A stretch of DNA of 43,105 nt, taken from positions 1 through 43,105 of the IMG/VR virus record IMGVR_UViG_3300037070_000842. One strand, given 5' to 3'. Positions 7,624-40,721 of the stretch are shown here, one piece after another. The position numbers were made by a program, and so were the translations under genes. The notes below the pieces were generated by a model. It was not told where the DNA came from, did no database searches, and saw nothing but the letters and a program-made list of their open reading frames with translations. This stretch comes from a virus. Position 1 is the first letter of the stretch; each line of letters starts with the position of its first letter.

Positions 7624-7747
7624 GCGGATCGATCCAGTGTGTGATGCCGCTGACGATCGCGGCGGAGATCAGCGCGAGCCACGGCAGCGCGATGAAGAAA
7701 ATAAAAGCGAACACCACCAGCCCATGCGCCTGATCGAAGAGGCTCAC
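7613..7747 (-). CDS. Small holin-like membrane peptide (44 aa)
   Basis: A 44-residue ORF with GTG start (in the overlap CGGTGAGCC with the preceding stop) and sequence MSLFDQAHGLVVFAFIFF followed by a second hydrophobic stretch ALPWLALISAAIVSGI. It holds one long or two short membrane helices and almost no charged residues. Its stop lies 11 bases inside the amidase gene. Position, size and coupling suggest a holin-type partner of the amidase; this is inference without a recognised family. Confidence 0.65.
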   Translation of the reverse strand: MSLFDQAHGLVVFAFIFFIALPWLALISAAIVSGITHWIDPHGL

Positions 7748-8355
7748 CGCTGATAGTTGCGCCACCACGGGATGTGCGGAGCCGCAGGAGCTGCCGCCTG
7801 CGGCGGAGCGGCCTGCGGCTGCGCGAAGCGTGCGCGCAGCTGCTGCAGCAGATCGCCCATCGGCGGGCGCGGGCCGGTTGGCGCAGTATTCCAACCCGGC
7901 CCACCATCAGTGAAGGTGCGCTGCTGAGGTGTCAGCGGCATCGGCCCGCTGCCGGAATACGGTCCCGAGTAGCCGCCCGGCGACATCGTGCCGCCACTCA
8001 TGCGAGGATCGTAGTTTGGGTCTGCTGCGTTTGCCGCCTGCTGCCTTGCCGACATCGCCATGATCTGCTCATGCGACGGCATGCCTGGGGTTGGCTGCAT
8101 CGATGGCATGCCCGGCATACCGCCGAACGGCAGATTAGGATTGAAGCCTGGAGGCGGCTGCATACCGCCACCGCTACTCATCTGCGCCGCCAGCATCTGC
8201 GGTGTGAGCCCGGCAAGCGGGTTGACCCCGCCACCGCCGCCACCATAACCAGCGATCGGCGCACCACCGCCCGGCGCACCAAGCATGCGCGGCATCTGCT
8301 GCGGCAAGGGACGAGCAGCAGTAGCGCCACCACCTGAGCCTGCGGGTCCGCCCAT
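7744..8355 (-). CDS. Gly/Pro/Met/Gln-rich low-complexity protein (203 aa)
   Basis: The composition is dominated by Gly, Pro, Met, Ala and Gln, with tracts such as GYGGGGGGVNPLAG and PPGFNPNLPFGGMPGMP, and a C-terminal segment of helical character (MGDLLQQLRARFAQPQ) ending IPWWRNYQR. It is probably disordered. Comparable Pro/Met-rich proteins occur at 25578-25994 and as an insert in the portal of this phage. It lies between the 83-residue gene (its start overlaps that stop by one base) and the membrane peptide. A structural role is possible but not shown. Confidence 0.7.
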   Translation of the reverse strand: MGGPAGSGGGATAARPLPQQMPRMLGAPGGGAPIAGYGGGGGGVNPLAGLTPQMLAAQMSSGGGMQPPPGFNPNLPFGGMPGMPSMQPTPGMPSHEQIMAMSARQQAANAADPNYDPRMSGGTMSPGGYSGPYSGSGPMPLTPQQRTFTDGGPGWNTAPTGPRPPMGDLLQQLRARFAQPQAAPPQAAAPAAPHIPWWRNYQR

Positions 8356-8800: not shown

Positions 8801-9182
8801 TTTTTGACCAAAAAATTGTGGGGTTTTGGCGGGGTGGATAGACGTGGAATGCCCGGTCCTCATCCCCGCAGGCTTTAAGGGAAGGATTTGAAAGCCCACC
8901 GGGGGTGGGTCGATCACCAATAGGCCCGTATTGCCATTCTCCTGGCCGCTGATGCGGTTTGAGGGGGCGACCTATCCCGACATAGCCGCGACCCAAGCAA
9001 CGCGTCAGTGGCCATTCTATTGGCAATGGAGCGATGCTAGGATGATGTACCTATTAGGTACACCCACACAACGCCAGACAACGCCTCCTCTGATTGGGTA
9101 ACAGATGGTAGTTCGTCGTAACCCATTGATATCGTTCACACCACATCGCCACATCCCCGTTCTGGGATGCAATTGGGATACA
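8801..9182. promoter_or_regulatory. Non-coding gap with palindromic operator and hairpin
   Basis: A 382-base gap between the putative small terminase and the next late gene. TGTACCTA-T-TAGGTACA at 9046-9062 is a near-perfect inverted repeat of the same half-site as the genome-wide operators. CCCACC-GGG-GGTGGG at 8895-8909 can form a hairpin. TGGCCATTCT-like words recur at about 8933-8945 and 9010-9019. Open frames here are short and unconvincing. A promoter with leader is the likely content; a packaging site is also conceivable given the neighbour. Confidence 0.5.
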
Positions 9183-9533
9183 TCAGCTGCCGTTCAGCGC
9201 CTTGGAACCGTCCAGCGTCTTCACAGCGTCACCCTCGATCACCTGCATCGGTGGCTCGGTTGGCGTCGACCACGTGATGTGCAGCCGCGTTGGGCCCAGC
9301 TCATCGCTGCCGCCGACTGGTTGCGGAACTTTGCCGTCAAGACGGTCGGCTATGAACATCGCCGCGCCGACATCCCCACTAATCGCCTTGTTGATCATGC
9401 TGTGTGCGATCGCGCGCAACGCCCGATGGTCCTCGCCAAACGTGGCAAGCTCCATCGTCAGCGCATCGTGAAACGCTTTGGTCTTCGGACGACCACCAGG
9501 ATTACCTGACTGGCCTTTCACCCACGGGGCCAT
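9183..9533 (-). CDS. Putative small terminase subunit (DUF5681-type, 116 aa)
   Basis: The start is chosen at MAPWVKGQSGNPGGRPKTKA. The KGQSGNPGGRPK block at the N-terminus is the signature of the DUF5681 family, whose members often lie at the head of phage packaging operons and are thought to bind DNA. A helical middle (RAIAHSMINKAISGDVGAAM, then FIADRLDGKVPQ) follows, then a beta-like tail. It is the first late gene after the triple operator at 9636-9669. The terL gene is 4.3 kb away, with two lysis cassettes between, which is unusual. The assignment as TerS rests on family habit and position. Confidence 0.65.
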   Translation of the reverse strand: MAPWVKGQSGNPGGRPKTKAFHDALTMELATFGEDHRALRAIAHSMINKAISGDVGAAMFIADRLDGKVPQPVGGSDELGPTRLHITWSTPTEPPMQVIEGDAVKTLDGSKALNGS

Positions 9534-9634
9534 TCTCAGGCCTGTTCTGTCTGTGATGTGATTGGAGGCGGGGCGCACCACGCAACCCTGCATTTCGTGA
9601 GGTTATCAAATCCACCGATTTGTAAACAGTTTTT

Positions 9635-11896: not shown

Positions 11897-13990
11897 TCAC
11901 TCCAGCGACCCAATCACCTCCAGTCCGGTCGGTTTGGTGCCAACACTCATGCGCCTGATTGTCACGATCTTGTTGTCGATCCACTGCAGGATCAGCATCT
12001 CGATCTGCTTGGCGGACACGTCGAACTTCTGACTGAGCAGGCGCGGTGCATACCGGCTGCGGTCATGCACATTCCTCGCGATCGTGAGCGGCAGCTGATC
12101 GGCCCAGGCCTGTCTCACCTCGTTGAGGATGCGCACCGCAATGTCCCTAGTGATCTCACCTAGGGCATCGGCGCGCCGGAAACGCCCGGCATCCAACTCG
12201 ACCAGCATCGGCTCGGGTTCGACGCCCGCACGCATCTCGAAATGCACCTTGCGGGCCTTACCCTCCTCGCTGGAGCGGTAGATCACCACGCAGCTGTCGT
12301 AGTAGCCGCGCAATGCCGAAGCACCACGCAGGCACACGAATGGGTCGCGCGCCATGTCCTCGATCGCCACCTTGCGGGTGTGGTGCGCCAGGATGATCGC
12401 CGCATCGGGATTGACCAGCTGCCGCAGCGGCTCGAGCCGCCCGGTGAGGAACGTCATCATCTGCGTGTTGTCGCCCTCACTCTCGGCGTCGAACACGTTC
12501 TGTAAGGGATCGATCGCGATGACATCTGGCCTGGGGCCTTGGTTGATGATGTCTGCGACCGCCTTCACCCCGTCAGCGTTCAGGATCATGCGGAAGCGGT
12601 CGCTGATCAGCAGGTTGGTGGTGAGCAGCTGCTGGTGCGCCTCGCTGAAGAACCCGGTGGCGCGGGCCCGCTGCCGTAGCAGCTTGGGTGCCATCTCGGC
12701 CTGCAGCCAGAAACACTTCAGCGGTCGAGGTACTTGGAAAGTATTGTTGAGAAACGATGTGCCCGTTGCACAGCTGATCAGCATGTCTTGTAAGAACCAA
12801 CTCTTCATAGACTTGGGCGGCCCAGCAACACACACGAACCCGCCCAGTGAAGCGAACCCAGGCTCGATGTAGTCGGGCTCCTCCTCCACGATCTCGCGCT
12901 TCAGCCCGGTGAAATTGAACACGCTGAAGCGTTGCGGCGGCACGGTGATCTGCGGCTGGTGGGGTGCGCCGCTGCCGTTCAGGCTCTTCGCCTTCGCCTG
13001 ATACTTGGCGATGTGCTCGTCCAGTGTCCCCAGGTGCCCGCTGTTGAGACGCTCCACCGCGTAGTGGCACTTGGACAGCAGCTCATCAGCGCCGCGCCCT
13101 GGCCGCGCGAACGACACATGCTCGGAGTACTGCGGCCACGTCATCTCGTACAACTCATTGCCGGTGGGGGCAGCTCCGTATGCTCCGATGTACTCGGTGA
13201 GACACGCCATCACGGTGTCGCGCATGTAGCGCTCGCGCCCATCGTCCAGTGGGGGCGTGGTGATCCCCAGCGAGCCACCCGATGCCAACTTGATTTCGGT
13301 ATCAATTTTCCATTCCTTCGGTGGTTGCAGCATCATCCTGGATGCGGTCGCAAATCGTTTCTCCAGCTCGCTGATGCTGTAGATTGGCTTGCCGGGCGTC
13401 TGCATAGGGGTGATCTTCGTCAGCTCCTGTACGCGCCCCTCCTTGACCGGCCACGCGATGGTGCCCGCCAGCCGCATCACCCGGCCTGGGTTGCAGACCT
13501 GGGGGTCTGCGTTCATCTCCTCCGCCATGCTGGAGAGCACACGCTTGGCCAGGGCAAAGTCGGTGGTGGGCTCGATCCGCCAGTAGCCGTGCAGCCGGGC
13601 GTGCGGGTGCAAGCCGGTGATGACCAGCAGGGTGGGAGGAAATGGGGTCCATAAATGCTTCGCATTTTCGGCACACCCTGGCGCATCCCAGTCGCACCAC
13701 AGCATCTGGACGAGGAGCACCTCACGATCGGCCGCTCGACCGAACGGCGCAGTGTTGGGACGGCGCGGACATACACCAACGTATAGGTTCGAGCCGCGCT
13801 TGTTCTGCAGGAACGCCTCACCGGCTGCGGCCTCGATCTGGTCGACGCGGTACAGCCGGGCGTGGTTGAGCTTGCCGGTGGTGGTGTCGGTGTAGGCGAT
13901 CTCGATCAACGCCTCGTCTGCCACGCCCTCGAACAGGAAGCGCAGGTGCGCCTCCATGTCTTGGACGTTGGGCTGCAGCTCAGCGGTCAT
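11897..13990 (-). CDS. Primase-helicase (AEP-like primase plus RepA-type ATPase, 697 aa)
   Basis: Bifunctional replication protein. The N-terminal half resembles archaeo-eukaryotic-type primases of the RepB-like group: LWCDWDAPG (97-105), LHGYWRIEP (133-141) and NPGRVMRLAGTIAW (167-180). The C-terminal half is a RecA-fold hexameric helicase of the RepA/KaiC type: Walker A GPPKSMKSW (390-398), WLQAEM (428-433), Walker B VIAIDPLQN (490-498) and LAHHTRK (534-540). The extreme C-terminus (RLLSQKFDVSAKQIEMLILQ, then WIDNKI) looks like a winged helix. Synthesis of primers and unwinding of phage DNA follow from the family. It follows a strong intrinsic hairpin and precedes a repeat-rich gap. Confidence 0.92.
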   Translation of the reverse strand: MTAELQPNVQDMEAHLRFLFEGVADEALIEIAYTDTTTGKLNHARLYRVDQIEAAAGEAFLQNKRGSNLYVGVCPRRPNTAPFGRAADREVLLVQMLWCDWDAPGCAENAKHLWTPFPPTLLVITGLHPHARLHGYWRIEPTTDFALAKRVLSSMAEEMNADPQVCNPGRVMRLAGTIAWPVKEGRVQELTKITPMQTPGKPIYSISELEKRFATASRMMLQPPKEWKIDTEIKLASGGSLGITTPPLDDGRERYMRDTVMACLTEYIGAYGAAPTGNELYEMTWPQYSEHVSFARPGRGADELLSKCHYAVERLNSGHLGTLDEHIAKYQAKAKSLNGSGAPHQPQITVPPQRFSVFNFTGLKREIVEEEPDYIEPGFASLGGFVCVAGPPKSMKSWFLQDMLISCATGTSFLNNTFQVPRPLKCFWLQAEMAPKLLRQRARATGFFSEAHQQLLTTNLLISDRFRMILNADGVKAVADIINQGPRPDVIAIDPLQNVFDAESEGDNTQMMTFLTGRLEPLRQLVNPDAAIILAHHTRKVAIEDMARDPFVCLRGASALRGYYDSCVVIYRSSEEGKARKVHFEMRAGVEPEPMLVELDAGRFRRADALGEITRDIAVRILNEVRQAWADQLPLTIARNVHDRSRYAPRLLSQKFDVSAKQIEMLILQWIDNKIVTIRRMSVGTKPTGLEVIGSLE

Positions 13991-14044
13991 GTGCCTGGAC
14001 GGAATGGGGCCGAAAAACGGGGTGGTTTATTTCCATTGGTAAAA

Positions 14045-14068
14045 TGCGGGGGCATTGCCGCCCCCGCA
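14045..14068 (-). terminator. Intrinsic terminator or attenuator before the primase-helicase gene
   Basis: TGCGGGGGC-ATTGCC-GCCCCCGCA is a perfect 9-bp stem. In the minus direction it is followed by TTTT, so it can terminate transcripts coming from the ssDNA-binding-like gene. The primase-helicase gene starts 55 bases downstream and may depend on readthrough or its own promoter. Confidence 0.7.
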
Positions 14069-14129
14069 GTTGGCATGAGCTGCGTCACGGACAGTTTCAG
14101 GGCTGTCCAATCAGCTCACACGGGTGCAT

Positions 14130-18427: not shown

Positions 18428-19087
18428 ATGGCTAAGAACGTAATGCGCGTCGGCGTAGACCTTGAGCTATCTGCGGTCGGAAAGTTTCTCTCTGACATGC
18501 AGGCCCGCGAAGGCGTGCTGAATATCCACCTCAATTTACCGGACGAAAAATACAAGCCCGATCCGGCGCTGCCGCGCGGTGCTGGCAGCGCGATGTCGGG
18601 CATGAAGTTTCATGAAGCGATCGTGCAGGCGATCGTGCAGCACGGACCCGCCACCAACCACGAAGTGAAGGCGCTGCTGCCAAGCTTCCCTAAAGCTAAT
18701 AGTCAGTACTCAGGCACGTTGAACTATCTCGGCAAGACCGGGCGTCTGGTGTGCAACCCGAAGGATCGTAAGTGGTCACTCACTGAGAAGTATCGAAAGC
18801 ATCTCGCCAATGGGAGCGCTGGACCGATCAAACCTCCACCCGGCGCAAACGGTCATGCTGCGCCTCGCAAGCAGCCTGTGCAGCGGGAGATGACCGGTGG
18901 CGAACTCATTCTCGACAATATGAAGGCAGGCAAGCCAATCACGTTGACGGAGATGGCGGCATTGTTTGTCAAGGATGGGCGCTCCAGTCGCTCGGTCAAC
19001 GACCAACTCAGCAAGTTGATCAAGGCGCGCAAACTTAAGCGCGTCGGCAAAGCCACATACGAACTGACAGCGGCAGGAGCAAAGTAA
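18428..19087 (+). CDS. Putative DNA-binding protein with two winged-helix-like parts (219 aa)
   Basis: Start MAKNVMRVGVDLELSAVGK with AGGAAA upstream. Two segments read as winged helices: residues 59-120 (MKFHEAIVQAIVQHGPATNH, EVKALLPSFPK, TGRLVCNPKDRKWSL) and 155-215 (GELILDNMKAGKPITLTEMA, SVNDQLSKLIKARKLKRVGK), joined by a Pro-rich linker. It is the first gene of the right operon and directly abuts the next ATG. A regulatory role is inferred. Confidence 0.75.
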   Translation: MAKNVMRVGVDLELSAVGKFLSDMQAREGVLNIHLNLPDEKYKPDPALPRGAGSAMSGMKFHEAIVQAIVQHGPATNHEVKALLPSFPKANSQYSGTLNYLGKTGRLVCNPKDRKWSLTEKYRKHLANGSAGPIKPPPGANGHAAPRKQPVQREMTGGELILDNMKAGKPITLTEMAALFVKDGRSSRSVNDQLSKLIKARKLKRVGKATYELTAAGAK

Positions 19088-19426
19088 ATGGCAAAGATAA
19101 AGGTGCATGTTCTGCGTCACTACGCGTTCATCGACAAAGACCCAGTGATCGACAAGATGCGAACGCTGATGGCCGAAGAGGGCGTGTCGGAATATCACGC
19201 CGCACTGATGGCCGGTCTGTCGCCTGGGACGGTGAAGAACTGGATCAGTGGCCCAACGCGTCGACCACAGTTTGCGTCTATCGTCTCGCAGACGCGGGCG
19301 TTGGGCTACGACATGGAGTTCAAGCGCAGGCGGAATGTCGATGTTGAGGGAGAGCTGAAGAAAGCAGCCGAAGAGAAGAAGGCAAACGGCAAGGCAACCG
19401 GGAAGATACGTGAGTTTCGCTGGTAA
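19088..19426 (+). CDS. Helix-turn-helix protein (112 aa)
   Basis: Start immediately after the preceding TAA, with GGAG in the upstream coding end. The segment MAEEGVSEYHAALMAGLSPG followed by TVKNWISGPTRRPQF is a good helix-turn-helix. The C-terminal third is basic and Lys/Glu-rich (ELKKAAEEKKANGKATGK). It is the second gene of the right operon. DNA binding is likely; the target is unknown. Confidence 0.75.
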   Translation: MAKIKVHVLRHYAFIDKDPVIDKMRTLMAEEGVSEYHAALMAGLSPGTVKNWISGPTRRPQFASIVSQTRALGYDMEFKRRRNVDVEGELKKAAEEKKANGKATGKIREFRW

Positions 19427-19512
19427 TAAGAATTAGGAATGGGTCAGTCCTAACTAACCAGCCGCGCATGACGTGGATCGTTTATCGCCAGCTCAAGGCG
19501 AGGAGGACGATT

Positions 19513-19923
19513 GTGATCAATGTAACCACCAATAAGGCTGTCGGAGCGAGCATCAGGCGAACGCGCAAGGGCCACGATATGACCATTTCCGCGCTGGGCA
19601 AGAGTGTGAACGTGAGCCCGCAGCAAATCTCAAAATACGAGAGCGGAAAAAACGGCATAGGCGTGGACATGCTGTTGAGGATTGCTGACGCATTGGATGT
19701 CGATCCCTGCGGCCTCCTGCCTGCAAACGATAGCGCAAGGCAGATGATCTCGCTCACACCCGACATCAAGGCCGCTCAAGCGATTGCTGAGCTGCCGCAA
19801 GGTCGAGAATTTATGATTGCGCTTGCGGCATTCAAGACAGCAAAGGCCTTCATAGCGGGCTCGGTGCTTTTCTTAAAAGGAGAAGCAGCATCACGCGGGC
19901 GTCCAAGGAAAAAGGCGCGCTAA
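19513..19923 (+). CDS. XRE-family transcriptional regulator (136 aa)
   Basis: A GTG at 19513 with AGGAGG six bases upstream is a better start than the in-frame ATG at 19468, which lacks a ribosome-binding site. Residues about 8-65 are an XRE helix-turn-helix (VGASIRRTRKGHDMTISALG, then NVSPQQISKYESGKNGIGV). The C-terminal part is helical and hydrophobic with a basic Arg/Lys tail. This is a second full HTH regulator besides the CI-like protein, so it could also take part in the lysis-lysogeny decision. Confidence 0.82.
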   Translation: MINVTTNKAVGASIRRTRKGHDMTISALGKSVNVSPQQISKYESGKNGIGVDMLLRIADALDVDPCGLLPANDSARQMISLTPDIKAAQAIAELPQGREFMIALAAFKTAKAFIAGSVLFLKGEAASRGRPRKKAR

Positions 19924-19961
19924 GGTTCTAGGAGGAAGCACTACCAACCAAGGAGGACGGT

Positions 19962-20213
19962 ATGAGTGGACTACAACGTGCGACGACTGAGCATGTGATG
20001 ATCATCATGGACCAGACCGGCCACACCCGGCTGCACTGGGATGCTGATGACGAGGACGATGTGGCGAACGCTCGCAAGATGTTCAGCGAGCTGACATCGA
20101 AGGGCTATGCCGCATTCGAGCGTGGGCGTGGTGGCGCGCAAGGTGAGCGGGTCAGCGAGTTCGACCCTGAAGCCGGAACGCTGATCATGGTGCCGCAGCT
20201 CAAGGGTGGCTGA
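19962..20213 (+). CDS. Hypothetical protein (83 aa)
   Basis: Start with AAGGAGGACGGT upstream, an almost ideal ribosome-binding site. The chain VMIIMDQTGHTRLHWDADDE, followed by ANARKMFSELTSKGYAAFE and FDPEAGTLIMVPQLKGG, suggests a small alpha-beta fold. It ends two bases before the next gene's ATG. I have an impression that such proteins accompany the next family in other phages, but have no function to give. Confidence 0.75.
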   Translation: MSGLQRATTEHVMIIMDQTGHTRLHWDADDEDDVANARKMFSELTSKGYAAFERGRGGAQGERVSEFDPEAGTLIMVPQLKGG

Positions 20214-20215
20214 AC

Positions 20216-20851
20216 ATGCCTGATACACCGGTCACGGTAACGACGAGCGACGGGGCTGCCGGATCGGTGCGGGTGCGGTGTTTTGACGTAACGAATGCGA
20301 CAAGCACCGCACTCGATATTTTCTACGATGGCACCGCCACAACCACGACAGCCACATCCACGATCACCTGGGCGGCGGACATGACCATGTGCAACTCTAC
20401 GATCGGGACGGCATTGGGCACGACCTACCAGCAGGCCGCGCGTTATCAGCGGGCTGCGCAGCAGCAGGCTCTTGCGCCCCAGCCTTCACCGGAAGAAGCA
20501 GCCAGACAGTTCGCTGAGCACCGCGCCCGTGTTGATCAGGAGCTGGCGATAACGGAAGCCGCTGAACGTCGCGCCCGCGAGCTGCTGATCGAGCACCTCA
20601 CAGAGGAGCAGCGCCAGACGCTACAGGAGCAGTTTTTCTTTGTGGTGATCGGGTCGCGTTCGGGGTTGCGCTACCACATTCAGGCGATGTGCGGAGTTGC
20701 GGGTAATATACGGCTGCCTGAAGAGCGTCTGACGTTATGTGCCCATCTGACTGGACCACTGCCACTCAGTGATCATCTGCTGGCGCAGAAGCTTTGGATC
20801 GAGCACAACGAGCCGGGGTTTCGCGCGATCGCGCACTCCAGCCGTTACTAG
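20216..20851 (+). CDS. Conserved-type hypothetical protein (211 aa)
   Basis: Three parts are visible: a Thr-rich N-terminus (about 1-55, TATTTTATSTITWAAD), a charged helical middle rich in Gln, Ala, Glu and Arg (66-140), and a compact C-terminal domain from FFFVVIGSRSGLRYHIQAMC through LPEERLTLCAHLTGPLPLSD to LAQKLWIEHNEPGFRAIA. The C-terminal pattern (short beta hairpins, LCAH, then QKLxIE) is one I recall from many phage and bacterial proteins of unknown role. The gene is followed by the structured RNA candidate. Confidence 0.75.
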   Translation: MPDTPVTVTTSDGAAGSVRVRCFDVTNATSTALDIFYDGTATTTTATSTITWAADMTMCNSTIGTALGTTYQQAARYQRAAQQQALAPQPSPEEAARQFAEHRARVDQELAITEAAERRARELLIEHLTEEQRQTLQEQFFFVVIGSRSGLRYHIQAMCGVAGNIRLPEERLTLCAHLTGPLPLSDHLLAQKLWIEHNEPGFRAIAHSSRY

Positions 20852-21004
20852 GAGATAAACCGGTTTCGGCACGCCCGTCACCACCCTGTGCCGAACAGGG
20901 GCCATGTCCAACCCCATGGCGCACACAAGGAAGCCCCGGCTCAAGTCGCCCCCTCGATAAAAGCCGGTCGTGTTGGTGATGGGTTTTAAAAACGGAGAGC
21001 AATC
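20852..21004 (+). ncRNA. Candidate structured leader RNA with pseudoknot
   Basis: No ORF fills this gap. Hairpin 1 is a perfect 8-bp stem (20865-20872 with 20888-20895) and a 15-base loop. Ten loop bases, CCCGTCACCA (20874-20883), pair with TGGTGATGGG (20974-20983) with one G-U, just upstream of the ribosome-binding site CGGAGAG. Between them GCCATG/CATGGC (20901-20906, 20915-20920) and CCGGCT/AGCCGG (20936-20941, 20962-20967) give two more hairpins. AAACCGGTTT (20857-20866) precedes it. A cis-acting control of the 21005 gene, or a separate small RNA, is inferred. Confidence 0.55.
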
Positions 21005-21385
21005 ATGCTCGCTGAAAATTTTCTGACTGCGAAGGAGCTTGGACTGTCGGAGCAAAGCCACCGCGCGCACATCGTGGTGCTGCGTAAGCTGGAGCGCGAG
21101 GAGCTGACCACAGATTGTACAGTAGAGACGATACGAGAGGGCCGGTTCTTTTCAATGGGAAACTGGTGCTACTGCTTGCGTGGTCAGGTGGTCAAACAGA
21201 TGGGTCGCGATGAGCTGTTCGATACACCGAAACGCAAATGGTCGGATGGGCTGCTCGATCTGTACATGCCACCGGAGAACGTGGTCCTGAACATGGGCCG
21301 CATCACCATGCCCCAGGCGGCGTGCGCGCTGCGTAACTACCTCACCACCGGCAAGGCGCAGTGGGAAGAGGCGCTGGCGGCATGA
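21005..21385 (+). CDS. Hypothetical protein downstream of the structured leader (126 aa)
   Basis: Start MLAENFLTAKELGLSEQSHR, with GGAGAG seven bases upstream. The opening looks like a short helix-turn-helix-type segment (TAKELGLSEQSHRAHIVVLR). The middle is FSMGNWCYCLRGQVVKQMGR, and the end PQAACALRNYLTTGKAQWEE. It overlaps the next gene as ATGA. It is the gene most likely controlled by the folded RNA upstream. The family is not recognised. Confidence 0.75.
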   Translation: MLAENFLTAKELGLSEQSHRAHIVVLRKLEREELTTDCTVETIREGRFFSMGNWCYCLRGQVVKQMGRDELFDTPKRKWSDGLLDLYMPPENVVLNMGRITMPQAACALRNYLTTGKAQWEEALAA

Positions 21386-21765
21386 AGACCGCCGCCGATC
21401 CTAGGCTCGAAGCTGGTCGCGTGCGGGGCGGTAAGTATGGCAGCACCGCACGCGACGGCCTAATGGGTTCGTTTCGCGTGCATGGGCCAAGGGGTGCTGG
21501 GCTTGTGATTTTTTCAAGCGGTGTCGATCTAGAGTTTGGCTGGGAGCACGTCAGTGTGTCCTGCGAACACCGCACCCCGAATTGGTATGAGATGTGCTGG
21601 GTCAAAGACCTGTTTTGGAGCGAGGATGAATGCGTGGTGCAGTATCACCCGCCACGATCAGCTTATGTCAACGTACACCCGCACTGCCTACACCTGTGGC
21701 GACCGGTTGATGGGGTGATGCCGATGCCGCCGTCGATGCTGGTCGGACCCAAGGTGTCGGTATGA
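21382..21765 (+). CDS. DUF7694-like phage protein (127 aa)
   Basis: Start MKTAADPRLEAGRVRGGKYG in an ATGA overlap with the previous gene. The conserved-looking core is WEHVSVSCEHRTPNWYEMCW followed by VKDLFW, then VVQYHPPRSAYVNVHPHCLH and LWRP. I associate this pattern with a widespread phage domain of unknown function (recalled as DUF7694; not checked). The several Trp, His and Cys residues could form a small binding or catalytic site. The stop overlaps the next start. Confidence 0.8.
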   Translation: MKTAADPRLEAGRVRGGKYGSTARDGLMGSFRVHGPRGAGLVIFSSGVDLEFGWEHVSVSCEHRTPNWYEMCWVKDLFWSEDECVVQYHPPRSAYVNVHPHCLHLWRPVDGVMPMPPSMLVGPKVSV

Positions 21766-21959
21766 TGAAAACCAGAGGCGATCTAGATTTAACCGGGAAG
21801 CTTCTCGCGGAGGCCGCGCGCAAATCCCCTCTCGACAGGGATAGGGACTTACTGGTCGCAGCGGCGAACGAGATCAGGAGGCTTCAGCGCCTTTTGGAGG
21901 AGAAAGTCTCCATCATCTTGAGCCATGAGCTGCAAGTCCGTCCGAAGGGGGAAGGATAA
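21762..21959 (+). CDS. Small helical protein (65 aa)
   Basis: The ATG overlaps the previous TGA (TATGATG). The chain is MMKTRGDLDLTGKLLAEAAR followed by DRDLLVAAANEIRRLQRLLE, a probable coiled-coil helix, with a tail HELQVRPKGEG. The family is not recognised. Placement within a tightly packed row of right-operon genes supports it as real. Confidence 0.65.
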   Translation: MMKTRGDLDLTGKLLAEAARKSPLDRDRDLLVAAANEIRRLQRLLEEKVSIILSHELQVRPKGEG

Positions 21960-21965
21960 CAAGGC

Positions 21966-22313
21966 ATGAGAGGCACCCTACTGATCCTGCAGGCTGGCGG
22001 CAGGAGGACCGTGCGCGAGATCGGAGACGTACTCGATCTCGCGGTGCTCAAGAAAGCGATCGATGGCGGCTTTCTGGAGGTGGTGCCGGGCTTCGACAGC
22101 ATCGAGCAGGACGGCAAGAAGCATCGATGCGTGGCGTTCTGCGATGAGGACGGCAAGCGCAAACAGCTGCCGTTGAACGCCAAGGCGACGATGCTGTGGC
22201 ATCGGGCGCTTCCGCCACCGGGCTTGCTGACAGGCAGTGGCGTGGTGATCGACACCCTGGTGGGCGACATCGCCGTGGTGTGGGGTGATGACGAGTGGAT
22301 GGAAAAGTTATGA
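21966..22313 (+). CDS. DUF3846-like protein (115 aa)
   Basis: Start MRGTLLILQAGGRRTVREIG. The order of segments, a LKKAIDGGFLEVVPGF strand-helix, then CDEDGKRKQLPLNAKATML and VVIDTLVGDIAVVWGDDE, matches the DUF3846 pattern as I know it (quasi-beta layout with 'DEDGK...LP.N..A'). The family has no settled biochemical role; members are frequent in phages and mobile elements. The stop overlaps the next ATG as ATGA. Confidence 0.75.
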   Translation: MRGTLLILQAGGRRTVREIGDVLDLAVLKKAIDGGFLEVVPGFDSIEQDGKKHRCVAFCDEDGKRKQLPLNAKATMLWHRALPPPGLLTGSGVVIDTLVGDIAVVWGDDEWMEKL

Positions 22314-22660
22314 CACTCCGCTTCTATATCCTCGACAAGCACCGGGTGATCCAGACGAATGATGTGCTTGAGTGGGTTGAGTGTATGGAGAGCAGGGAAC
22401 GGATCGTTGCGCGCACCGAGTTCGCGTGCGGCGTGCTGGTCAGCACAGTGTTCCTGGGGCTCGACCATCGCTTCGGTCGCAAGGGGCCACCACTGGTGTT
22501 TGAGACGATGGTGTTTGAGCTGGCAGAGAGCGGCAGCAGCGACGAGCAGCGCTACTCATCCTGGGACGATGCCGAGACGGGACACAAGGCTGTGGTGCGC
22601 CGGGTCAAAGCGCAGATCAAAAAGGCGGGGCAGCTGGCGAAGGAAGAACAAGCGTTGTGA
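22310..22660 (+). CDS. Hypothetical protein (116 aa)
   Basis: Start MTLRFYILDKHRVIQTNDVL, in a 4-base ATGA overlap with the DUF3846-like gene. A compact alpha-beta chain: ARTEFACGVLVSTVFLGLDH, PPLVFETMVFELAESGSSDE, then EQRYSSWDDAETGHKAVVRR and a Lys/Glu-rich tail. The 'YSSWDDAETGHKAVV' segment is a pattern I have seen in phage proteins of unknown function. No reaction can be assigned. Confidence 0.78.
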   Translation: MTLRFYILDKHRVIQTNDVLEWVECMESRERIVARTEFACGVLVSTVFLGLDHRFGRKGPPLVFETMVFELAESGSSDEQRYSSWDDAETGHKAVVRRVKAQIKKAGQLAKEEQAL

Positions 22661-22670
22661 GGTGGTGGCG

Positions 22671-22925
22671 ATGCGAAAACTCAAACACAAAGACGACGTG
22701 TCGCTGGTCGACAAGATCGCACTGTCGACCGGCGAGGCGTGCGCGTTGGCAGGCGTGGGGATGAACACGATCTACAACGCGATCCATGCCGGTGAGCTGG
22801 TGGCGCGCAAGGTCGGCACCCGCACCATCATCCTGCGTCGTGATCTGAATGCGTGGCTTGGCACGCTGCCGAAAAGTGGTCACCCGGTGGTCACCCGGCA
22901 AAAATCCAAAAACCTAACTAGCTGA
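22671..22925 (+). CDS. Excisionase-like helix-turn-helix protein (84 aa)
   Basis: Start MRKLKHKDDVSLVDKIALST. The core STGEACALAGVGMNTIYNAI followed by HAGELVARKVGTRTIILRRD and LNAWLGTLP is a typical HTH_17/excisionase fold. It lies 277 bases upstream of and co-directional with the integrase, which is the usual place for a recombination directionality factor. Its 3' end contains two tandem copies of TGGTCACCCGG that recur in the gap before the integrase. It resembles the gene at 3182-3448. Confidence 0.82.
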   Translation: MRKLKHKDDVSLVDKIALSTGEACALAGVGMNTIYNAIHAGELVARKVGTRTIILRRDLNAWLGTLPKSGHPVVTRQKSKNLTS

Positions 22926-23129
22926 AATCATTACAAAAAGAAGCATCCGTTCGCGGACCACGTATCGGACGCAAGGGGGTTTTGGTCCTAAAAGAACGTT
23001 ATCCGACATTGTCGGTATCGTTGGAGATATTTGTACCGGTACAAGCACTTACGTTGTCCTCCTCCCTCTGGGCTTGAGACAGCTCATCCAGTCACGAAAC
23101 CGAAAAATGGTCACCGGATGGTCACCCGA
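22877..23129. repeat. TGGTCACCCGG direct repeats around the integrase leader
   Basis: TGGTCACCCGG occurs twice head to tail at 22877-22887 and 22888-22898, inside the end of the excisionase-like gene. Close copies lie at 23108-23117 (TGGTCACCGG) and 23119-23129 (TGGTCACCCGA). Paired directly repeated sites on both sides of an integrase leader suggest arm-type binding sites for the integrase or excisionase. No att core with a tRNA-like sequence was recognised. Confidence 0.55.
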
Positions 23130-23166
23130 AACGCGTTGACCGTCCGGTACATTTTCCGGTACAAAA
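23003..23166. promoter_or_regulatory. Operators upstream of the integrase
   Basis: TTGTACCGGTACAA at 23031-23044 is a perfect 14-base palindrome of the genome-wide operator half-site. GGTACA at 23146-23151 and GGTACAAAA at 23158-23166 are two direct copies 12 bases apart, ending 37 bases before the integrase ATG. CCGACA-T-TGTCGG (23003-23015) is a further small palindrome. Repressor control of integrase transcription is inferred. Confidence 0.6.
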
Positions 23167-23202
23167 TGGTCATTCGCTTCCGCGAACAAGGGGGTCGCAC
23201 AA

Positions 23203-24450
23203 ATGCAAACGCTCAATCCCAAGCAAATCACGTCTCTGCCGGTCGGCGCACACAGCGATGGCGGCGGGCTCTATCTGATGGTTGAAAAAAACGCCGCAGG
23301 CGAGGTGGTGCGCAAGTGGTCGTTCCGCTTCACTTGGGGCGACAAGCGCAAGGTGATGGACATCGGCCCGGTACGTGACACCACCCTGGCGCAGGCCAGG
23401 GACCGGGCAGGGCAGCTGCGCCAGGACATCAGCGCCGGTCGTGATCCCCGCGCCGTCAAGCAGGCGGTGCGCACCAGGGTCGACAGCGAGCAGACGTTCC
23501 TGGCGTTCGCAAATTCAAAAATCGACAGCTGGTGTGCCGGGCTCAATCCGCGCGAACCAGCGGCCTGGAAACTGGCCCTAGCGTCGGTGCCATCGCTGCA
23601 CGGCATGCGGCTCGACGCGATCGACACCGTGCATGTCGAGGCGGCACTCAAGCCACTGTGGCGGCCTAAGAGCCAGGGCGGCACCCCCGCCACCGCCAAG
23701 GTGACCCGGCAGCGCATCGAGAAGGTTCTGAGCGCAGCCGCTGCGGTGGGCCTGCGTCCCCGTGGCTTCAACCCGGCATCCTGGCGCGGCAACCTCGACC
23801 AGCTGCTGCCCAAGGTCAGCCGGGTGCATCAGCCAGCCGGGCACACCTCGCTCGACTACTCGGAGCTGCCCAGGCTGATGACGGCGCTGCGCTACGACAC
23901 CGATCTGGTCGCCCGCGCGATCGAGCTTGTCATCCTGACCGCCTGCCGCTCGCAGGAGGTGCGGCTGATGCAGTGGTCCGAGGTCAACCTCGACAAGGCG
24001 GTCTGGAACATCCCCGCCGATCACATGAAGCTGAACAAGGCGCATCGGGTGCCGCTGTCACCGCAAGCGGTGGCGCTGCTGAAGGGTCTTCCGCGCACCA
24101 GCCCACTGGTGTTCCCGCAGGACAAGGCCAAACGCCTGGGCCCGTCGCCTATGTGGTCAGCGACCCTGCGCAACAAGCTGCACGCCTCAGGCTTCGCCGT
24201 GACCCTGCACGGCATGCGCACCAGCTTTCGCAACTGGTGCGGCGAAAGCCTGGAGCACAACTTCCGCCGTGAGATGATCGAGCACTGCCTCGCCCATCGC
24301 GAGGGTGACAGCAGCGAGCGTGCGTACTGGACCGCTGAAGCGCTCGATCGCCGCCGCGAGATCATGAACGCCTGGGCCGATCATGTGCTGCCGCGCAAGG
24401 CAGGCGGCGAGAAGAAGCGCCCGGCCTTGCGCGTGGTCAGCGCCGCCTGA
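23203..24450 (+). CDS. int: Tyrosine integrase, P4 type (415 aa)
   Basis: Site-specific recombinase that inserts the phage into the host chromosome. The N-terminus (GGLYLMVEKN, KWSFRFTWGDKRKVMDIGP) matches the arm/DUF4102-type domain of P4-like integrases. A core-binding domain lies near 95-205. The catalytic set is visible: R249 (TACRSQEVRLMQW), K near 276-279, H336 and R339 (LHGMRTSFRNW), H365 (CLAHREG) and Y375 (AYWTAEALDRRREIM). The start has AAGGGGG nine bases upstream. The length and order of motifs are those of a full, functional enzyme. P4-type enzymes usually integrate in tRNA genes. Confidence 0.96.
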   Translation: MQTLNPKQITSLPVGAHSDGGGLYLMVEKNAAGEVVRKWSFRFTWGDKRKVMDIGPVRDTTLAQARDRAGQLRQDISAGRDPRAVKQAVRTRVDSEQTFLAFANSKIDSWCAGLNPREPAAWKLALASVPSLHGMRLDAIDTVHVEAALKPLWRPKSQGGTPATAKVTRQRIEKVLSAAAAVGLRPRGFNPASWRGNLDQLLPKVSRVHQPAGHTSLDYSELPRLMTALRYDTDLVARAIELVILTACRSQEVRLMQWSEVNLDKAVWNIPADHMKLNKAHRVPLSPQAVALLKGLPRTSPLVFPQDKAKRLGPSPMWSATLRNKLHASGFAVTLHGMRTSFRNWCGESLEHNFRREMIEHCLAHREGDSSERAYWTAEALDRRREIMNAWADHVLPRKAGGEKKRPALRVVSAA

Positions 24451-33838: not shown

Positions 33839-34822
33839 TTACACGGTGGTGAGATCGAAAACTCCACCAGACGCGAGCTGATTGCGGCTTTCGAGCACAT
33901 ACTCTGTCAGCATCTGCCGTCGATCGCTGTCGCCAGTCTTGGCAAGAGAAATCGACAACATCTTGCGTCCAGGCATATGCCCAACCGCCCACATGTCCTC
34001 TTGGAAAACTAGCAGGTCGCGGGAGCGTACCCACCGATTGGCAACCAGCTTGAGGGTGCCAAAATCGCTCTTGTAGGTATCAACCGCAGCGACGATCGTG
34101 CGGGTGGTCGCGTCTTCAAACGTGGCAGCACGCCCCTGAAACATCGAGAACGCTTGCTTCTGGAAACCATTCAGCATGATCGTCCCCGGACGCCCGCCGT
34201 TGTTCCAGATTTTTTGCAACACGTCTTTGAGCTGCGTCTCAGCAAGCGCCCGCTGCGTGCCATCGGTACGCACCACCGAACCATCGTTCACCGCTGGATC
34301 GGCGGCGGCACCAGTGCCCTTGTTAGTGTTTGGCTTGGTGCTGTCCATTCCAAGATATGCCAACACCGATGACGTTTTGCGTGCAGTGCCGATGCCAAGT
34401 GAACCCGGAGCGGTCTGCGCTTGAAGGCTAAGTAAGATAGCCTCCACATCACGCTTCAGCTCCAAGCCCTTGAGCGTCTCCTGGTAGCTCAGCTCGTCAC
34501 CATCGATGCCCGCAGGATCGCTTGCCTGTTGGGTGCCGGTGACACGCGCCACCTTGTCCGAAATTTGGCAGCGATTGAACAACCGCACCGTGGGGATCAG
34601 GGTGTCGGTCTGCGCGTCATCCCCTTCAAGCACCGCGTTGTTGAGGTTGACGCCGTCAAGAGCCTGCGTCTGCCATTCATGCTTGGTGGATGTTGCCTTC
34701 ACCTTTTCACACATGGTGAAGAACGGCGTCTCGGTCGGATCAATCCTGAAGATTTCGTCTGACAAATCTTCCCTGTTTCCAACCTTCATATACGTAGTAA
34801 GTACCTGTGCATCGACCGCCAT
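33839..34822 (-). CDS. Major capsid protein, SU10 type (327 aa)
   Basis: Shell protein of the head. Start MAVDAQVLTTYMKVGNREDL with AAGGAG nine bases upstream. The order of segments, IFRIDPTETPFFTMCEKVKA, then HEWQTQALD, then RLFNRCQISDKVARVTGTQQ, KGLELKRDVEAILLS and the C-terminal VRSRDLLVFQEDMWAVGHMP, is that of the SU10 major capsid (DUF5309) family with an HK97-type fold. It follows the scaffold gene, as usual, and is the gene next to a strong hairpin. Confidence 0.92.
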   Translation of the reverse strand: MAVDAQVLTTYMKVGNREDLSDEIFRIDPTETPFFTMCEKVKATSTKHEWQTQALDGVNLNNAVLEGDDAQTDTLIPTVRLFNRCQISDKVARVTGTQQASDPAGIDGDELSYQETLKGLELKRDVEAILLSLQAQTAPGSLGIGTARKTSSVLAYLGMDSTKPNTNKGTGAAADPAVNDGSVVRTDGTQRALAETQLKDVLQKIWNNGGRPGTIMLNGFQKQAFSMFQGRAATFEDATTRTIVAAVDTYKSDFGTLKLVANRWVRSRDLLVFQEDMWAVGHMPGRKMLSISLAKTGDSDRRQMLTEYVLESRNQLASGGVFDLTTV

Positions 34823-40283: not shown

Positions 40284-40721
40284 TCAGTTGATGGTGAACA
40301 ACGCCCCCGCTGGAACTGTGTAGGTGTCGGTGTTCGCCATAGTGATGGCAGAGCCGTGGTTGATCCAACCCATCACCGGATTGAGCGGCGTCGTCGGGGT
40401 GTCGTTGATCCAGACCACATACTGGAATGTCGCGACCGCGCCGGTCGCCGTGAACACCACCTGCGTGCCGCTGACCGTGGTCGTCTGGCTGGTGCGCGCG
40501 TACGACAGCGTGGTCGTGGCACCTGTAAAGGCGTTGGCACCGTCGACCATCTGCGTATAACCACCGCCGGTCGTAATCTGCGTCACGTTCGACAGCAGGA
40601 ACCACGTCGTCGGCGATGGCGAGGTGTTGCTGAAGATCAGCCGACAGGTGTCCGAATTGAAATCGTGAACCTTGTTCGCGATGTCTTCGGAGAAAATATC
40701 CGGCTCAGTCCACGTTGCCAT
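40284..40721 (-). CDS. Beta-rich phage structural protein (145 aa)
   Basis: Start MATWTEPDIFSEDIANKVHD with AAGGAG eight bases upstream. It continues NSDTCRLIFSNTSPSPTTWF, then a Thr/Ala-rich beta part (TLSYARTSQTTTVSGTQVVF, FQYVVWINDTPTTPLNPVMG) and ends AGALFTIN. I know similar proteins in phages directly after portal genes; decoration or minor head protein is the usual guess. Position supports a virion role. Confidence 0.78.
   Translation of the reverse strand: MATWTEPDIFSEDIANKVHDFNSDTCRLIFSNTSPSPTTWFLLSNVTQITTGGGYTQMVDGANAFTGATTTLSYARTSQTTTVSGTQVVFTATGAVATFQYVVWINDTPTTPLNPVMGWINHGSAITMANTDTYTVPAGALFTIN

Follow-up and report, generated by a model that had tools for sequence, protein, structure and literature searches.

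A predicted multi-branch RNA domain in an intercistronic gap of a temperate phage

A gap between co-directional phage genes

What is a gap of 153 bases doing in a run of small phage genes that otherwise overlap or follow one another closely, and does the complementarity within it point to an RNA that acts in cis? The window in which this gap is found (IMG/VR virus record IMGVR_UViG_3300037070_000842, positions 1 to 43,105, the whole stretch of 43,105 nucleotides that was analysed) belongs to a temperate phage and encodes a portal protein (phrog_1216), a terminase, a major head protein (phrog_1328) and a tyrosine integrase. The host is likely a member of the Rhizobiales, because the head protein is closest to its counterpart in the Bradyrhizobium phage ppBeUSDA76-2 (49% identical). 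Around the gap, small genes follow one another rightward (18428 to 24450), two of them encoding helix-turn-helix proteins, in a run that would be transcribed together as an operon. Nearby spacings in this run are overlaps or 2, 6, 38 and 41 bases, and a gap of 277 bases precedes the integrase gene. The gap and its two neighbours are as follows.

20216 to 20851, plus strand: upstream gene, an open reading frame with a TAG stop, encoding an orphan protein of 211 residues (codon score 0.113, inside the range of genes)
20852 to 21004, plus strand: intercistronic gap of 153 bases, non-coding by codon score
21005 to 21385, plus strand: downstream gene, an open reading frame encoding an orphan protein of 126 residues (codon score 0.243)

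The upstream protein, threonine-rich in its N-terminal part and alanine- and glutamine-rich in its middle, matches nothing of weight in PHROG, Pfam or NCBIfam, and no family was found for it. The downstream protein has no family match either, and its AlphaFold model (pLDDT 46) is too poor for use. Adjoining these genes is that of a DUF7694 protein (21382 to 21765, phrog_7839), the sole gene beside the gap with relatives in viral contigs; these come from two virus records, are 57-58% identical, and stand in different gene settings.

Is the gap translated? The sequence-only reading took it for an untranslated element, and codon usage bears this out in every frame and on both strands. With scores trained on the phage's own genes (135-base in-frame segments, 5th percentile 0.026), the three plus-strand frames of the gap score -0.127, -0.145 and -0.355 and those of the minus strand -0.003 or less, all short of that percentile. 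What we have between these co-directional genes is non-coding. A coding explanation would have ribosomes read through the TAG of the upstream gene with the aid of the structure downstream, or translate a small open reading frame of 18 codons (20904 to 20960). The frame past the TAG is indeed open for 45 codons, from 20852 to a TAA at 20987, in phase with the downstream gene, but an open frame of this length is unremarkable at the G+C content of the window. Both candidates were rejected on their codon scores (-0.127 for the read-through extension and -0.197 for the small frame, against the 0.026 of genes), and we find a coding role hardly credible.

Pairings in the gap and their predicted fold

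The feature that raised the question is a stem-loop that can be seen directly in the letters.

20865 to 20895, plus strand: perfect 8-bp stem (20865-20872/20888-20895) with a loop of 15 bases, from the sequence-only reading

The pairings claimed for this part of the gap are all present. The stem is formed by TTCGGCAC (20865 to 20872), perfectly complementary to GTGCCGAA (20888 to 20895) across the 15-base loop, and within the loop CCCGTCACCA (20874 to 20883) is complementary, with one G-U pair, to TGGTGATGGG (20974 to 20983). This long-range pairing is lengthened to 11 pairs by an extra G-U (20873/20984). Two further hairpins lie in between (20901 to 20920 and 20936 to 20967), and a ribosome-binding site, GGAGAG (20994 to 20999), follows the downstream arm at a distance of 10 bases and serves a gene that starts with ATG.

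How often would such pairings arise by chance? Among dinucleotide shuffles of the gap, 4% contain a perfect stem of at least 8 bp, while none of 5000 contains the 8-bp stem together with the 10-base loop match in the arrangement described; a 10-bp helix with at most one G-U that spans at least 60 bases is found in 2.8% of shuffled gaps. The exact combination of stem and loop match occurs once in the 43-kb window, both strands included, against an expected 0.095, and turns up at least once in 7% of shuffled windows. Since this motif was first noticed in a long sequence and only afterwards defined, these statistics are suggestive, not strong, and the arrangement is unusual, not extreme. An operator was considered as well and rejected: the window contains 62 occurrences of TTCGGCAC with at most one mismatch, not a significant excess over the 51 expected (8 of 100 shuffles).

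The fold of the gap was predicted with RNAfold under four energy models (Turner 2004, Turner 1999, Andronescu 2007 and Langdon 2018) at 28 and 37 C. In the predicted structure the long-range helix, called P1, encloses three hairpins.

20873 to 20883 paired with 20974 to 20984, plus strand: P1, closing helix of the multi-branch fold, 11 pairs including two G-U (probability 0.935-1.0 over the four models and two temperatures)
20884 to 20900, plus strand: P2, hairpin CCCUGU/ACAGGG (probability at least 0.996)
20901 to 20920, plus strand: P3, hairpin GCCAUG/CAUGGC with the loop UCCAACCC (probability at least 0.999)
20936 to 20967, plus strand: P4, hairpin with helices 20936-20941/20962-20967 and 20945-20948/20955-20958 (inner helices at least 0.93)

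The probability of P1 is at least 0.93 with and without the upstream gene, and 0.991 in the context of 20600 to 21250. An outer extension of P4 (20923-20926/20970-20973) is uncertain, with a probability of 0.06-0.40, and a compact four-way junction is therefore not firmly predicted. Of the structure first described, a stem-loop with its loop paired downstream, the models retain one half: the long-range pairing is kept as P1, whereas the 8-bp stem, which uses bases in common with P2 and is mutually exclusive with it, has a probability of at most 0.004 in nested models, a class of models unable to score pseudoknots. The simplest account of the long-range pairing, as modeled, is that it closes a nested fold with several branches, and this fold probably differs from the pseudoknot that was first described, with the long-range helix as the predicted core common to both versions.

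The pseudoknot version would join the loop of the 8-bp stem to 20974 to 20983, and the whole would act as a translational switch. Both pairings exist in the sequence, and a rough sum of helix energies, with a pseudoknot penalty added, comes close to that of the nested fold provided that the loop makes all 10 of its pairs. The single linking base 20873, however, must cross a 10-bp helix, and known H-type pseudoknots do not favour a one-base link across a helix of that length. The nested fold, moreover, retains the long pairing without any pseudoknot, and the ribosome-binding site, 10 bases off, is left unaffected. We regard the pseudoknot as highly improbable.

A competing helix and the ribosome-binding site

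The next question is whether this fold could alternate with another one and thereby control the downstream gene. Two more predicted features bear on it.

20810 to 20822 paired with 20930 to 20942, plus strand: helix A, 13 pairs including one G-U, joining the end of the upstream gene to the gap (predicted minority state, probability 0-0.06)
20993 to 21014, plus strand: hairpin containing the Shine-Dalgarno sequence (GGAGAG, 20994 to 20999) and the start codon of the 21005 gene (-8.3 kcal/mol alone)

Helix A, which the sequence-only reading did not notice, is incompatible with P1 and P4. Its length of 13 bp with one G-U is equalled in none of 200 shuffles of 20780 to 21060, and in that context its state and the P1 state are only about 1 kcal/mol apart. 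Such a pair of folds brings to mind a two-state, attenuator-like leader, in which the choice between helix A and the P1 domain would fall to the ribosomes as they translate the last part of the upstream gene. What this leader lacks is an output. The hairpin at 20993 to 21014 has a probability of 0.41-1.0, varying with model and context, but the two competing folds do not differ in it, and the ribosome-binding site is neither covered nor freed; no promoter or terminator was found on the sense strand within the gap, and neither fold makes or breaks a terminator hairpin. Helix A, besides, makes up at most 6% of the predicted ensemble. We consider a leader of this kind improbable, and much the same holds for the more specific proposal of an undescribed phage element in which the P1 domain and the upstream-gene helix exclude each other and upstream translation sets the expression of the next gene.

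The same evidence speaks against the translational switch that had been suggested for this element, as both competing folds keep the ribosome-binding site in one local hairpin. Nor does the gap have the pair of folds expected of a riboswitch, one that hides and frees the ribosome-binding site or makes and breaks a terminator. Since neither fold alters the hairpin and the gap has no sense-strand terminator, there is no visible switch output. P1 does resemble the closing helix of riboswitches and T-box-like leaders with multi-way junctions, in that it closes a multi-branch junction upstream of a gene. Unlike these leaders, the gap has no Rfam match at the gathering threshold and no expression platform by which P1 would act on the ribosome-binding site or a terminator.

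Stability, relatives and the likeliest role

Is the fold exceptionally stable? For the whole gap the z-score is about -2.2, with 2% of shuffles equally stable and 10% equally well defined; with 20-base flanks included, 0.25% of shuffles match the energy and less than 1% match the definedness. The 112-base domain closed by P1 (20873 to 20984) reaches a z-score of -4.3, beats 200 of 200 shuffles and is second among 960 windows scanned, figures that belong to boundaries picked to fit the fold. In an unbiased scan for local folds, segments of coding genes do equally well or better (for example 33883 to 33988 in the head protein gene). Stability by itself does not show function in this phage.

Some other structures in the window deserve a record of their own. 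A match of the fold scan at 40593 on the plus strand overlaps the apparent start of a minus-strand gene. At 8925 to 9035 on the plus strand, between genes 7744-8355 and 9183-9593, there is a long hairpin (about 99 bases, -52.5 kcal/mol, with a local z of -5.8). Another gap (13991 to 14129, minus strand, z -4.1) precedes a helicase-like gene (11897 to 13990) and contains an imperfect hairpin, then a strong stem like that of an intrinsic terminator (UGCGGGGGC-GGCAAU-GCCCCCGCA), then UUUU. This minus-strand element, for which Rfam gives no match of weight, is possibly a terminator, an attenuator or a small RNA.

Do relatives of the element exist? By tblastn, the proteins of the 20216 and 21005 genes have no relative among 50,697 phage records, and the 21005 protein has none among 72,556 plasmid records. 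Pattern scans, which reach close relatives only, found none of the 21005, 20216, 19962, 18428 and integrase proteins in viral contigs, and neither the 21005 nor the integrase protein in genome contigs. DNA searches with the region or the element return only short chance matches. A single-sequence covariance model of the element, run on the window and eight other records, finds at E below 1 only the window's own copy. A search with the portal protein does yield related virus records, in which the 20216 and 21005 genes are absent; the longest close record ends before the early region. The missing relatives show neither function nor lack of function.

The sequence-only reading recognised no known RNA class here, and Rfam concurs: no Rfam 15 family reaches its gathering threshold in the gap, and at permissive thresholds nothing rises above chance. 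A family search of the whole window has no match at E up to 10, and a tRNA search gives none. The c4 antisense RNA (RF01695) is comparable as a structured RNA of a phage early region, but there is no family match, the gap giving none even at E up to 5. The Rhizobiales-2 RNA (RF01723) aligns weakly with the gap, at 17.6 bits (gathering score 40, threshold not reached) and E 4.5, through a C-rich loop on a GC-rich stem at about 20865 to 20895; the alignment relies on the 8-bp stem, which the fold prediction leaves unformed, and several of its pairs are mismatched. This sub-threshold likeness and the C-rich loops of P3 and P4 are what would speak for a separate small RNA made from the gap, a phage sRNA with C-rich loops. 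The lack of a sense-strand promoter or terminator, a run of just four U after P1, the chance-level Rfam score and the empty search of the whole window argue against it, and we hold such an RNA to be very unlikely. The evidence at hand gives no support to a new class of RNA.

The RNA of the gap may act in cis. The explanation that we favour, tentatively and with somewhat less than even confidence, is an ordinary structured spacer in intercistronic mRNA, with a cis role that would be at most passive (stability or insulation). The gap would then be the non-coding spacer between two cistrons of the rightward operon, and the multi-branch domain closed by P1 (20873 to 20984) would form in the spacer RNA in the cell. 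The domain would begin about 22 bases past the upstream stop and end about 10 bases before the next Shine-Dalgarno sequence; from these coordinates, it appears to fit between the likely footprints of the terminating and the initiating ribosomes. If functional, it would most likely work passively in cis, giving different stabilities to the upstream and downstream segments or keeping their translation apart. A passive role is preferred over a switching one because the ribosome-binding site is unaffected by whichever fold forms. For the structured spacer we count the probability of at least 0.93 that P1, P2, P3 and inner P4 keep under all models, together with the non-coding gap; against it we count the moderate z-score of the whole gap, the want of a homologue, and the want of a promoter or terminator in the gap.

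Nearly as likely is an incidental fold, in which the self-pairing of a GC-rich and C-rich spacer, perhaps left over from a gene since lost, is fortuitous and serves no function. The modest whole-gap z-score, the shuffled gaps with a comparable long helix, the shuffled windows with the exact motif, the stronger local z-scores of coding segments and the failure of DNA searches to find relatives of the element would all be expected of such a spacer. Less expected is that several independent helices should coincide in a single gap of an operon this compact, and that the folding should be unusually well defined once the 20-base flanks are included.

Intercistronic stem-loops give segmental mRNA stability in bacterial operons, for example in the Rhodobacter puf operon. 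Like the puf structure, the structured spacer would be a stable, non-coding structure between two cistrons, placed after a stop and before a ribosome-binding site, though predicted here from sequence. Where puf has simple hairpins, the predicted structure here has several branches within a long closing helix. Should the fold prove incidental, its lesson is one of caution, as gaps of GC-rich phages would then hold long complementarities commonly enough that homologues are needed before function is claimed. If the domain does work in cis, this would be one more phage that tunes neighbouring genes of the same transcript through the structure of the gap between them.
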